A stretch of DNA of 18,030 bases from an uncultured Eubacteriales bacterium (lineage in GTDB: Bacteria; Bacillota; Clostridia; Christensenellales; UBA1242): contig CARBWQ010000006.1 in the NCBI GenBank assembly GCA_948949055.1, positions 1-18,030 on the forward strand. Reading direction: 5' to 3'. The notes under the pieces are model-generated. The model saw only the letters and a list, made by a program, of their open reading frames with translations. It was not told where the DNA came from and searched no databases. Below are positions 4,708 to 7,850 of the stretch, in pieces (within the stretch, counting starts at the first letter, position 1; every line of letters starts with the position of its first letter). Position numbers and translations under genes: made by a program.

Positions 4708-4767
4708 GTTTCAATTTATTCAAATTTTTTTATAAAATAATAAATGCTTTGTTTTTTAAAAAAAAGC

Positions 4768-4794
4768 TTGACAATTCCCCCCCCCGAGTATAAT
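4768..4794 (+). promoter_or_regulatory. Promoter with C9 tract in the spacer (probable phase-variable switch)
   Basis: A consensus -35 box TTGACA (4768-4773) and a consensus -10 box TATAAT (4789-4794) are separated by only 15 bases, nine of which are one C homopolymer (4777-4785). The best sigma70/sigmaA spacing is 17, so this state should be weak. Gaining two C would restore 17. Slipped-strand change in such a tract is the known mechanism of phase-variable promoters such as porA and opc in Neisseria. Its target is the gene at 4835, 40 bases downstream. The identical 12-mer AAAAAGCTTGAC occurs at the second such promoter (7248-7274). The boxes are seen directly; switching is inferred. Confidence 0.75.
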
Positions 4795-4834: not shown

Positions 4835-5593
4835 ATGAAAGAAAATAAAAAAGATTATATGAAAATGATTTGGGATAATTTGGGAAATAGTGTACAGTAC
4901 AAAGTTAGTGATTTAACTTTTCTAACAATTACTGATTTTGATGATGAATGGGAATTGGCTCGTAAGGAATATTTAGATGCTCTTGATAATATAAGTAAAA
5001 ATGCTGAGGAAGAATTAAAGCGTGGCGCTACTATTAATGAAATCAATAATAAATTGAATGAACAAGAAGAAAAATATAACCTTAAATTGCATGATATTCG
5101 CAATAAAAAAATGAAAATATATAGGGAAAGTGGGCTAGAAAAAATTTATAACGATAAAATTCAAGGTTATAAAGATCAAATGTCCAACCTAATTAATAAT
5201 GGTAAGAGTTTTGTGCTTAACAGTGATAATTATGGTAGTAGTGGAAGTTTAAGGAATATTGCGCCAGACTGTATATCAGTGGCAGTAAGAAATGGTTGTT
5301 TGATAGAAGAGTTGATTGGTGATGAAAGAGATGGACAATGGATAGAACCATATTGGTATGCAGGTATAAAAAGTATTTGCAAAAGAGAACCAGACAGTAA
5401 TCATGTACTTTTAATTACAGACTTAGACAATACTACTGATGAATATAAAAAACTTATGTATAATATTATCAGCAAGCGCTCGGTTTCAGATGGATATGGT
5501 AAACTTCCAGACAACTGTGTTATTGTTGTGACAGACCACAATAAAGAAAAATTAAACGATGTAAATAAAGAAGAGGATATAGAAAGAGAATAA
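4835..5593 (+). CDS. Orphan protein with AAA+-like Walker B/sensor region, no P-loop
   Basis: I do not recognise this 252-aa protein. The first 110 residues are charged and rich in Lys and Glu, with heptad-like stretches around residues 45-100 that suggest a coiled coil. The second half has HVLLITDLDN (residues 190-199) and LPDNCVIVVTDH (residues 224-235), separated by a KKLMYNIISKRSV helix. In order and spacing these resemble the Walker B, ring helix and sensor-1 strand of MoxR-type AAA+ ATPases. The matching Walker A motif is absent (the only GKS, near residue 124, lacks the surrounding glycine loop), and Walker B has D-L-D-N instead of D-E. It may be a catalytically dead AAA+ relative, or the likeness may be chance. 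It starts with a strong TAAGGAGGAAT site, behind a C-tract promoter, and is followed by its own terminator. Confidence 0.8.
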   Translation: MKENKKDYMKMIWDNLGNSVQYKVSDLTFLTITDFDDEWELARKEYLDALDNISKNAEEELKRGATINEINNKLNEQEEKYNLKLHDIRNKKMKIYRESGLEKIYNDKIQGYKDQMSNLINNGKSFVLNSDNYGSSGSLRNIAPDCISVAVRNGCLIEELIGDERDGQWIEPYWYAGIKSICKREPDSNHVLLITDLDNTTDEYKKLMYNIISKRSVSDGYGKLPDNCVIVVTDHNKEKLNDVNKEEDIERE

Positions 5594-5732: not shown

Positions 5733-5978
5733 TTAATCATCAAGTACATTTTTAAATAAATCGCAGTTGAAAAAATCGTATACAGTTATCCCTAACCCAT
5801 CGCATATGAATTTAATTGTAACAATTCCAGGATTCTTACTCTTGCCATAAAATATACTTGTGATGGTGCTTGGGTCCATTCCAGATAATGTTCCTAGTTT
5901 ATTTGGCGTGATACCCCTTTCATCACATAACTCCATTATTCTTTTTGCGATTGCCTCATTTGTTTTTAAATATTCCAC
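5733..5978 (-). CDS. XRE-family helix-turn-helix regulator (81 aa)
   Basis: A small DNA-binding protein made up almost entirely of one HTH_XRE (Cro/C1-type) domain. The helix-turn-helix lies at about residues 23-48 (NKLGTLSGMDPSTITSIFYG), followed by the KNPGIVTIKFICDGLGI segment typical of helices 4-5. No effector domain is seen. The start is a GTG at 5978-5976 preceded by AAAGGA. A 10-bp palindrome and a similar half-match lie just upstream (6027-6036 and 5979-5988), compatible with autoregulation. It could control itself, the neighbouring regulator at 6088, or the phase-variable gene at 4835. Its target cannot be read from sequence. It resembles regulators of defence islands and mobile elements. 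Confidence 0.88.
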   Translation of the reverse strand: MEYLKTNEAIAKRIMELCDERGITPNKLGTLSGMDPSTITSIFYGKSKNPGIVTIKFICDGLGITVYDFFNCDLFKNVLDD

Positions 5979-6087: not shown

Positions 6088-6390
6088 TTATTTTTGCTTC
6101 AAAAATTCTATAAGATGTTCTTTTTTAGCTTTTGGCAAGGCTTTTATAAGGCTCAAAAGTTCTTTGTCTACATCATATTCATTTGGTGAAGAATAAAAGA
6201 ATTTTTCTATTGGAAAATTGCAAACTGTAAGCAAGTCAATAAGTTTATCAACTTTTAAAGGCATTCTTCCATTTTCTAGTTTACTTACATATTGTTGGCT
6301 TAAACCCATTCGCAAACTGACCTCTCTTGCAGAGAGATTGGCGAGGTTTCTTACGTAACCTATTCTATTTCTTATTTCCTTTTTATCCAT
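6088..6390 (-). CDS. XRE-family helix-turn-helix regulator (100 aa)
   Basis: The N-terminal 65 residues form a canonical HTH_3 domain: a basic first helix (RNRIGYVRNLANLSAREVS), the recognition region RMGLSQQYVSKLENG at about residues 27-41, then VDKLIDLLTVCNFPIEKFF. The last 35 residues (ELLSLIKALPKAKKEHLIEF) are amphipathic and probably dimerise. The start ATG at 6390 follows GAGGG. The gene is divergent from the SLOG-like gene at 6550, with a 159-bp shared control region. It is 109 bp upstream of, and co-oriented with, the other XRE gene, so both may be on one transcript. Family assignment is strong; the target is unknown. Confidence 0.92.
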   Translation of the reverse strand: MDKKEIRNRIGYVRNLANLSAREVSLRMGLSQQYVSKLENGRMPLKVDKLIDLLTVCNFPIEKFFYSSPNEYDVDKELLSLIKALPKAKKEHLIEFLKQK

Positions 6391-6549
6391 AATTTCCCTC
6401 TTATCATTAGTATATTGTGTATTTTTGTTTTGCGTTATTACTATTTATGATAAAAAATATCTAAAAATAATCAAAGTGAATACCAATAAGTATAAAATTG
6501 TGTATAATATATATTATCAGTATTCAATATTAATTTTGTGAGGGTAATT
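6391..6549. promoter_or_regulatory. Divergent control region with repeated ATTGTGTAT
   Basis: The region separates the XRE gene at 6088-6390 (leftward) from the gene at 6550 (rightward). The 9-mer ATTGTGTAT occurs twice in the same orientation, at 6414-6422 and 6497-6505. The second copy overlaps a TATAAT (6503-6508) that would serve the rightward gene. No good -35 box is seen for it, which fits an activated or regulated promoter. These repeats are the best candidate binding sites for the divergent regulator, but this is inference. Confidence 0.4.
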
Positions 6550-6984
6550 ATGAAAAGAAAAAAGGTTTGCAGTATTTGGGGACACAAAGAGGCTAACCCT
6601 GAAAAAAAAGAGGATATTGAAAAGTTATTAACTTATTTGGTTTTAAATAAAGATGTAGAGATATTTCTTTTTTTTGATTTTAATAAGTTTAGCTTTCTTT
6701 GTTATGATGTCATAAACAAAGTCAAACAAAAGTATCCCAATGTAAAAAGGGTGTTTATAAGTAGCGATCAGACTGTAAGCAGGATAGGATATAAGATTGA
6801 ACATTTTATTTTTGATAATTACATATTTAAATTAGACAAAATCAATTATTCTTTTAAAGATTATGAAATAGTAATGAAAAGTGATTTTTTATTAATTCAG
6901 TTGGTTGAAAATGGGAAGTGGGATCGCAGACTTCAAAAATATACCTTTAAATTCAATAGAAAGTGCAAACTCATTTTTATTTGA
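6550..6984 (+). CDS. SLOG-like (Rossmann-type) small protein, divergent
   Basis: A 144-aa protein that resembles the small SLOG/YspA-like Rossmann proteins of Clostridia. It has an N-terminal CSIWGHK (family form CSFxGHR), a strand FLFFDFNKF followed by an LCYDVINKVKQKYP helix and VKRVFISSD, and near the end a KSDFLLIQL strand. SLOG proteins bind nucleotide-derived ligands and are often in defence or stress islands. The usual glycine-rich end (a GT-x-A motif followed by a long helix) is missing: the protein stops after KCKLIFI, so it is truncated or diverged. I chose the ATG at 6550 over the in-frame GTG at 6538, because the intervening GAGGG (6540-6544) is the ribosome binding site. Family membership is by pattern recall. 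Confidence 0.7.
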   Translation: MKRKKVCSIWGHKEANPEKKEDIEKLLTYLVLNKDVEIFLFFDFNKFSFLCYDVINKVKQKYPNVKRVFISSDQTVSRIGYKIEHFIFDNYIFKLDKINYSFKDYEIVMKSDFLLIQLVENGKWDRRLQKYTFKFNRKCKLIFI

Positions 6985-6993
6985 GTTGAAAGC

Positions 6994-7075
6994 GACGAGA
7001 GTAAATTTTGAACTTTTGTTCAAAATTTGTGGTCATGAAATGACCAGCTTGGCGAAATAGCCAAGCACTCTCGTC
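6994..7075. other. Near-perfect four-way junction (cloverleaf) element
   Basis: An 82-base segment folds with only one unpaired junction base. The closing stem is GACGAGAGT (6994-7002) with ACTCTCGTC (7067-7075), 9 bp. Arm 1 is AAATTTTGAAC/GTTCAAAATTT (7003-7013/7018-7028), 11 bp with a TTTT loop. After one G (7029), arm 2 is TGGTCAT/ATGACCA (7030-7036/7040-7046), 7 bp. Arm 3 is GCTTGGC/GCCAAGC (7047-7053/7060-7066), 7 bp. There are no mismatches. It starts nine bases after the stop of the gene at 6550 and is directly joined to a tandem repeat. It may be a structured RNA or a folded single-strand DNA signal. The pairing is seen directly; the function is unknown. Confidence 0.85.
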
Positions 7076-7170
7076 ACCCGATCCTACCAACCAAACCCGA
7101 TCCTACCAACCAAACCCGATCCTACCAACCAAACCCGATCCTACCAACCAAACCCGATCCTTCCAACCAA
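7076..7170. repeat. Five tandem 19-bp repeats, G-quadruplex-prone on the minus strand
   Basis: The unit ACCCGATCCTACCAACCAA is repeated head to tail with no spacer at 7076, 7095, 7114, 7133 and 7152. Four copies are identical and the fifth has one A-to-T change (7162). The repeat begins at the very next base after the cloverleaf. On the minus strand each unit reads TTGGTTGGTAGGATCGGGT, with four G-runs (2, 2, 2, 3) and loops of 2-3 bases, enough for a two-tetrad quadruplex. Its GC content contrasts with the AT-rich surroundings. No ORF runs through it. Confidence 0.95.
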
Positions 7171-7247
7171 ATATAGTCTATCTTCCAGTCCCAGTTTCAA
7201 GTCATTATTATAAAATTTAAAACTTCTAAAAAATATTTATAAAAAGC

Positions 7248-7274
7248 TTGACTTTTTTCGGGGGGGGGTAAAAT
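7248..7274 (+). promoter_or_regulatory. Promoter with G9 tract in the spacer (probable phase-variable switch)
   Basis: TTGACT (7248-7253) and TAAAAT (7269-7274) are separated by 15 bases, of which the last nine are G (7260-7268). Spacer length and tract length are the same as at the C9 promoter (4768-4794), although the tract is on the opposite strand and the other spacer bases differ. The upstream 12-mer AAAAAGCTTGAC (7241-7252) is shared. It would drive the small membrane protein gene at 7367 through a leader of about 85 bases. Addition of two G would restore 17-bp spacing. Phase variation is inferred. Confidence 0.7.
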
Positions 7275-7366
7275 AGATAATGAAATTTTATCTCATCTGA
7301 TAATGCTTGCATGGGGTTGCTTAATGGAGGGAGATAACAGAGTTAAAAGCAATGAGAGGAGGGAAT

Positions 7367-7675
7367 ATGTGGGAAATAAATAATAATGATAAACAAACTA
7401 AAAATGAACAAGACAAAGAACAGACAGATAAAGTTGAGAAAATTTATCTCAATCAAGGGCAATACCCTAATATAAGTCACTCTAAAACTGCAATAGGGGT
7501 GCTTTTGTTCTTTTTAGGAATTATTGGTTTGATTGTCGGACTTCTTTTATATCCATACAATACATATGAAAGAAAGACTTTTATCAAAGGTTGGGTTGGT
7601 GCTTTATTGTCACTAATAATTATTATCATTTTGGTATTAATAATTTCTAGCATTGTTTCTGCTGTAAGTCGTTAA
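7367..7675 (+). CDS. Small two-helix membrane protein, unknown function
   Basis: This 102-aa protein has a charged, Asn/Lys/Gln-rich N-terminal half (residues 1-40) with no signal peptide, then two hydrophobic segments at about 41-62 (AIGVLLFFLGIIGLIVGLLL) and 75-100. The short linker YPYNTYERKTFIKGW between them looks like a conserved motif of small Firmicutes membrane proteins, but I cannot name the family. The N and C termini are predicted on the same side, probably cytoplasmic. I chose the ATG at 7367, with GAGGAGGG at 7356-7363, over the in-frame ATG at 7352, which lacks a well-spaced site. Its promoter contains a G9 tract, so expression is probably on/off. A weak terminator follows at 7781. 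Confidence 0.8.
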   Translation: MWEINNNDKQTKNEQDKEQTDKVEKIYLNQGQYPNISHSKTAIGVLLFFLGIIGLIVGLLLYPYNTYERKTFIKGWVGALLSLIIIIILVLIISSIVSAVSR

Positions 7676-7780
7676 ATATAAAATCAGGTGGGAATAAATT
7701 CATGCTTTAAGTTTTTGTAAATAAAAAGTTTCAATTTGATTTTACATACAGCTTATAAAAACAAAATAAAATAAAAAATT

Positions 7781-7807
7781 ATTCCAAAATACTTGGAATT
7801 TTTTTTT
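7781..7807 (+). terminator. Probable intrinsic terminator overlapping the ppdK promoter
   Basis: ATTCCAA (7781-7787) pairs with TTGGAAT (7793-7799) around a five-base loop, followed by a run of T through 7807. The same TTGGAA serves as the likely -35 box of ppdK. The stem is AT-rich and only 7 bp, so its efficiency is uncertain. Confidence 0.55.
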
Positions 7808-7821
7808 AAATGAGCTATACT
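7793..7821 (+). promoter_or_regulatory. ppdK promoter
   Basis: TTGGAA (7793-7798) and TATACT (7816-7821) are separated by exactly 17 bases, 29 bases before the ppdK start codon. The -35 box lies in the right arm of the upstream inverted repeat, so terminator and promoter share sequence. Confidence 0.65.
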
Positions 7822-7850
7822 CATTAGGTAAATTATAAAAAGGAGAAAAT

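Follow-up and report, generated by a model that had tools for sequence, protein, structure and literature searches.

Introduction

Well-studied pathogens are known to switch individual loci through a tract in the promoter spacer. The porA promoter of Neisseria meningitidis reportedly contains a poly-G tract. Expression of the class 1 outer membrane protein (porA) of this organism is described to vary via the -10/-35 spacing of its promoter (van der Ende, 1995, cited in PMC5084427). For the opc promoter of the same species, it was described that poly-C length tunes transcription, and that 5 of 17 clones went from 11C to 12C or 14C during an experiment (PMC6389960). Homopolymeric tracts in prokaryotic genes were also proposed as hypermutable regulators; in that study these are poly-A/T tracts within coding genes, whereas the tracts discussed here are poly-G/C and lie within promoter spacers (Orsi, 2010; PMC2831843). 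Finally, invertible promoters were described for gut bacteria (Jiang, 2019, cited in PMC11868660).

The locus presented here resembles porA in that the -10/-35 spacing of a promoter is the (here proposed) variable, and opc in that a homopolymer tract lies in the promoter, which is poly-C in a sister promoter of our locus. The porA case is one locus of a Gram-negative pathogen with demonstrated variants, whereas here many loci of uncultured Clostridia are concerned and variation is seen between copies and species. Likewise, the length change of the opc tract was seen in the experiment described above, whereas here lengths are compared between genomic copies and species. With the invertible promoters our system would share phase variation at the promoter level in gut bacteria; those promoters, in contrast, rely on inverted-repeat recombination, and no fitting repeats were found around the promoters of our locus. 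In the widest picture that we consider below, the tract class would be a transcription-level, Gram-positive counterpart of the Neisseria and Campylobacter contingency systems. Among the titles and abstract starts listed by searches of open-licence PubMed Central papers, none reported such a multi-locus tract-promoter class (subscription journals and preprints lie outside this scope).

Results

The earlier note on this DNA had described a promoter composed of TTGACT, 15 bases with nine G, and TAAAAT, and exactly this anatomy is read on the + strand at positions 7248-7274 of the window, i.e. of the whole 18,030-base stretch that was analysed. The -35 element TTGACT (7248-7253) is followed by a 15-nt spacer (7254-7268, TTTTTCGGGGGGGGG), which begins with TTTTTC and ends in nine G, and by the -10 element TAAAAT (7269-7274). 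A mononucleotide tract of at least 8 bases between -35 and -10, as in promoters of the porA/opc type, is therefore present between TTGACT and TAAAAT, and this G9 homopolymer (7260-7268, + strand) is the candidate length-variable part, judged by the sequence and by the tract lengths of the class. The sister promoter, also on the + strand (4768-4794), reads TTGACA-ATT-C9-GAG-TATAAT. The spacer length (15 nt), the tract length (9 nt) and a 12-mer claimed to be shared by the two promoters are indeed common to both: the 12-mer AAAAAGCTTGAC, which consists of A-rich upstream bases and most of the -35, has only two copies on the + strand of the window, at 7241-7252 and 4761-4772. The tract had also been placed on the opposite strand, which is right in so far as it is G in one promoter and C in the other, but both promoters point in the + direction. 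The tracts of these two promoters are the only G/C runs of at least 6 in the window, and first-order Markov simulations of the window produced any G/C run of at least 9 in 9 of 2000 cases. The promoter at 7248-7274 is absent from the output of a generic sigma-70 scan because the scan accepts spacers of 16-18 only. Two genes of the Cro/C1 helix-turn-helix type lie between both tract promoters on the - strand (5733-5978 and 6088-6390), and 7076-7171, between the ORF at 6538-6984 and the G9 promoter, is made up of 5.1 copies of a 19-bp unit repeated in tandem (98% matches).

The target gene of the G9 promoter (7367-7675, + strand) is preceded by AGGAGGG, its likely ribosome-binding site (7357-7363, + strand). 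It encodes 102 amino acids from the likeliest start, ATG at 7367, and 107 if the ORF is taken from 7352. Hydrophobic stretches at approximately residues 42-62 and 76-98 agree with the small two-helix membrane protein that had been claimed. The search of Pfam and NCBIfam with this protein gave no match over cut-off, and the search of a large protein collection returned 7 proteins including itself. The gene behind the C-tract promoter (4835-5593, + strand; 252 aa) gave no Pfam or NCBIfam match over cut-off either. Here and below, "family" and "order" are those of genome G001, and the counts come from relatives of the window organism. Homologs of the 102-aa protein (E 0.001 or better, the weakest being doubtful) are found in 70 of 309 family genomes. 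A tract promoter lies just upstream in 9 of 30 fetched homolog loci (8 G, 1 C) and additionally in G230 (L395), while the other 21 hold no tract promoter passing the filter; three further homolog loci with a tract nearby (G207:C12, G260:C1 and G143:C16) were left out of this count because the gene starts are unclear there.

The PPDK search indicated, as the closest among the matches listed, L002 (G001) with 90% and L001 (G002) with 79% identity, both belonging to "uncultured Clostridia" MAGs. G001, the closest among the matches listed, contains no TTGAC+G7 and no TTGAC+C8 match, which counts against a universal family trait. Elsewhere in the family the recurrence is pronounced: of 197 genomes, 88 contain TTGACN(1-10)G7 and 8 its reversed control, TTGAC+C8 was found in 82 of 306 (control, 12), and the G8 form in 16 of the 20 genomes of a C-tract-rich subset. 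Across the order, TTGAC+G8 occurs in 59 of 200 genomes with about 231 matches against 1 in the reversed control (here as above, controls and match sums were tallied from tables and a few matches overlap). The genomes with the best counts are G113, with 20 copies of one cassette, and G207, with 17 G8 sites. A phylum-wide class was considered and rejected as weak, with the G8 form in 43 of 299 genomes and 54 matches compared to 29 in the control, i.e. near background.

Long homopolymers were surveyed over 1.90 Mb, made up of 12 contigs or parts of contigs that each come from a different family genome. There are 35 G/C runs of at least 7, every one of them 8-11 long, and none measures exactly 7. 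Of the 35, 26 are enclosed by TTGA and a -10-like hexamer (G on the promoter strand in 25, C in 1); nine of the 12 contigs were chosen for a known TTGAC+G7 site, and if one site is subtracted for each of them, 17 of 26 remain. Among 372 A/T runs of at least 8, no more than 30 sit in promoter spacers (14 as A, 16 as T). In G207:C12 all six runs are in promoters, and the part of G222:C8 has no runs. Of the nine G/C runs outside promoters, eight are in called ORFs, at G025:C1, G181:C1, G169:C1 and G062:C1 (parts of L295-L297, L304-L326, L358-L369 and L373); such long runs within ORFs are possible frameshift contingency loci.

The distance between the promoter elements differs from that of ordinary promoters. 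Exact TTGACA-n-TATAAT pairs in the surveyed contigs (n 14-21) peak at a spacer of 17 (32/61). The tract sites number 102 distinct ones (67 G, 35 C), and among the 98 with spacers of 14-21 the value of 17 is reached by 12; spacers of 15 and 16 dominate, and 17 is rarer than in ordinary promoters (Fisher p 6e-8). Sites beginning with TTGACTTTTTTCG follow the same line: without a tract, 12 of 14 have a spacer of 17 and the others 16 and 11, several of the 14 being near-identical and so non-independent, and the four with a tract have spacers of 15, 15, 15 and 18. The tracts are 7-13 long, their distance ranges over 0-10 bases on the -35 side and 0-14 bases on the side of the -10 as assigned, and tract length shows no correlation with flank length (r -0.04). 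The site finder keeps one -10 per site, chosen by score, and the long spacers may therefore rest on a wrong assignment.

Copies of the cassettes of the window were found before other genes. The G9 27-mer, TTGACTTTTTTC-G9-TAAAAT, has three exact copies in G288, which precede proteins of 537-577 aa with N-termini hydrophobic by eye, plus one longer interrupted variant; at L416 the copy is adjoined by an upstream tract copy without a -10. The C9 27-mer occurs as four exact copies in 3 of 306 family genomes (G214 twice, G215 and G258), and the proteins behind the G214 and G215 copies are, by eye, unlike that of the window. Alignment of the cassette copies revealed little similarity beyond the core. 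Whereas these exact pure cassettes were seen at length 9 only (C9 4/4, G9 3/3), a related cassette, TTGACAAAAATGC-tract-TARAAT, has 53 copies in 6 of 25 genomes searched, of which 44 are pure with lengths of 7 (2 copies), 8 (12), 9 (27) and 10 (3), the rest being seven interrupted and two A-terminated; its spacers range from 14 to 19 with a mode of 16 (33/53). In the pairs L224/L228, L386/L390 and L254/L262, which are orthologous or near-identical promoters from different species, the tracts are distinguished by 1-base indels; what sets L277 and L398 apart from their orthologs is a substitution, with the spacer length kept. Promoters of the porA/opc type are expected to differ in tract length between strains or copies with the flanks kept; the class shows such differences between copies and species, the exact pure cassettes of the window only length 9.

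The target proteins were compared with other genes of the 12 contigs by gene calls and a hydropathy rule made for this analysis. A hydrophobic N-terminus is found in 16 of 24 targets and in 394 of 1592 other genes (p 2e-5), and a hydrophobic helix anywhere in 19 of 24 targets vs 485 of 1592 others (p 1.5e-6); among the 26 promoters concerned, two are without an assigned gene and two assignments are nearly 400 nt distant. A Pfam scan of ten targets gave matches over cut-off for five (LRR_5, DUF6273, the Listeria-Bacteroides repeat twice and an InlB-type repeat), a match below cut-off only for one, and no match for four. When all collected sites are taken, N-terminal hydrophobicity is observed for 36 of 53 G-tract targets vs 9 of 25 C-tract targets (p 0.013). 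Genes without a hydrophobic N-terminus are accordingly commoner behind C-tract (16/25) than behind G-tract promoters (17/53), and for this reason G and C tracts may be used for genes of different classes.

Discussion

The existence of a selected multi-locus class is strongly supported in relatives of the window organism. The class, which comprises G- and C-tract promoters, is present in many genomes of one uncultured Clostridia order, and most of the G-tract ones precede genes of secreted proteins, lipoproteins or membrane proteins. The proposal of the earlier note that we deal with a selected class and not with one accident is borne out in these relatives by recurrence far over the reversed control, by identical cassettes before other genes and by the location of most long G/C runs of the 12 surveyed contigs in promoter spacers. 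The surface-type target that it proposed finds a parallel to porA and opc in the two helices of the window target and in the leaning of the class to secreted and membrane proteins (16/24 vs 394/1592), but this part of the proposal holds less well for C tracts (9/25). Given its repetition in uncultured relatives before many genes, often those of surface or membrane proteins, the design probably serves as an expression switch that works by a change of length. We assign a probability of roughly 70% to the reading that the tract promoters are slippage-tuned sigma-A promoters of the porA/opc kind, used at many loci.

Such a switch would consist of a vegetative (sigma-A type) promoter with a hypermutable mononucleotide tract in its spacer. 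Slipped-strand mispairing would add or remove single G's, the changed tract length would change the -35/-10 distance and therefore, as we propose, the promoter strength, and expression of the downstream membrane protein would become stochastic yet heritable. We would guess that the 15-nt register seen in the assembly represents a low state and that tracts 1-2 G longer would give a higher one. We infer slippage as the cause of the length differences, its reversibility, its effect on transcription and the role of spacers of 15-16 as the weak state. We also lean, though with little more than even odds, to a wider picture in which an order of uncultured Clostridia controls about 20 genes in some genomes via interchangeable G- and C-tract cassettes, whose usual register lies 1-2 bases under the local optimum, and in which replication slippage suffices, with no recombinase involved, to give each lineage a random set of surface proteins.

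One would argue that the tract is instead a fixed element, whose length near 9 is conserved because a tract-binding regulator or the unusual shape of the G/C run sets the expression of a regulon. This chief rival agrees with exact 27-mers common to different species, with length 9 in 27 and spacer 16 in 33 of the 53 copies, and with those ortholog differences that leave the spacer unchanged. However, we regard it as unlikely, given a tract that is either G or C and free in its position (0-10 bases from the -35, 0-14 from the -10), and lengths of 7-13 that are uncorrelated with the flanks (r -0.04). Chance homopolymers in AT-rich intergenic DNA have a negligible probability: apart from the existence of non-promoter runs (9/35) nothing speaks for them, and they are refuted because the class recurs in relatives; the 26 of 35 runs in promoter spacers, the 9 of 2000 simulations, the recurrence over controls and the exact 27-mers in other species all speak against them.

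A further reading retains the effect of length on promoter strength but lets it be adjusted across species and copies over long periods, too slowly for a switch within a population. All length variation seen is indeed between copies or species, the exact C cassette is C9 in 4 of 4 cases, and all 20 relatives searched have MutS1 (TIGR01070), over cut-off in 19 and split across two contigs in one. Loss of mismatch repair aids SSR switching in other SSR-rich bacteria; as a switching aid here it was rejected, mutS being present in all 20. The presence of MutS1 and the strong preference for length 9 speak against a fast switch. The slippage reading is also weakened by the spacer-keeping substitutions at L277 and L398 and by G001, in which neither tract form was matched. 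On the other hand, the absence of runs of exactly 7 among 35 and the 44 of 53 uninterrupted copies suggest that long pure tracts are maintained, and slow tuning is, in our opinion, quite improbable. The slippage-tuned switch stays our preferred reading, and an uncultured order seems to employ the design known from the pathogens as a layer of cassettes at many loci. Should this be true, a list of switch loci becomes available, existing metagenomes could be used to read their states, and surface variation in commensals without recombinase switches becomes testable.

An invertible promoter was rejected as there are no fitting inverted repeats: around 7248-7274 there is one imperfect AT-rich pair only (74%, arms overlapping), and around 4768-4794 four pairs, none of which is both promoter-flanking and more than 74% complementary. 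A plasmid or phage origin was rejected as well, the plasmid search with 6900-7850 and the phage search with the 102-aa membrane protein giving no match. Of 137 viral stretches fetched from IMG/VR with GCTTGAC plus a G8/C8 run, 18, which are of mixed G+C, include a hexamer resembling a -10 at a suitable distance. Four IMG/VR stretches (L091, L108, L119 and L126) contain a related promoter with a -35, a G8-G10 tract and TAGAAT inside an inverted repeat, the arms of which are AAATTGC or AATTGC, and GCAATTT, in L108, L119 and L126, with a weaker match in L091.
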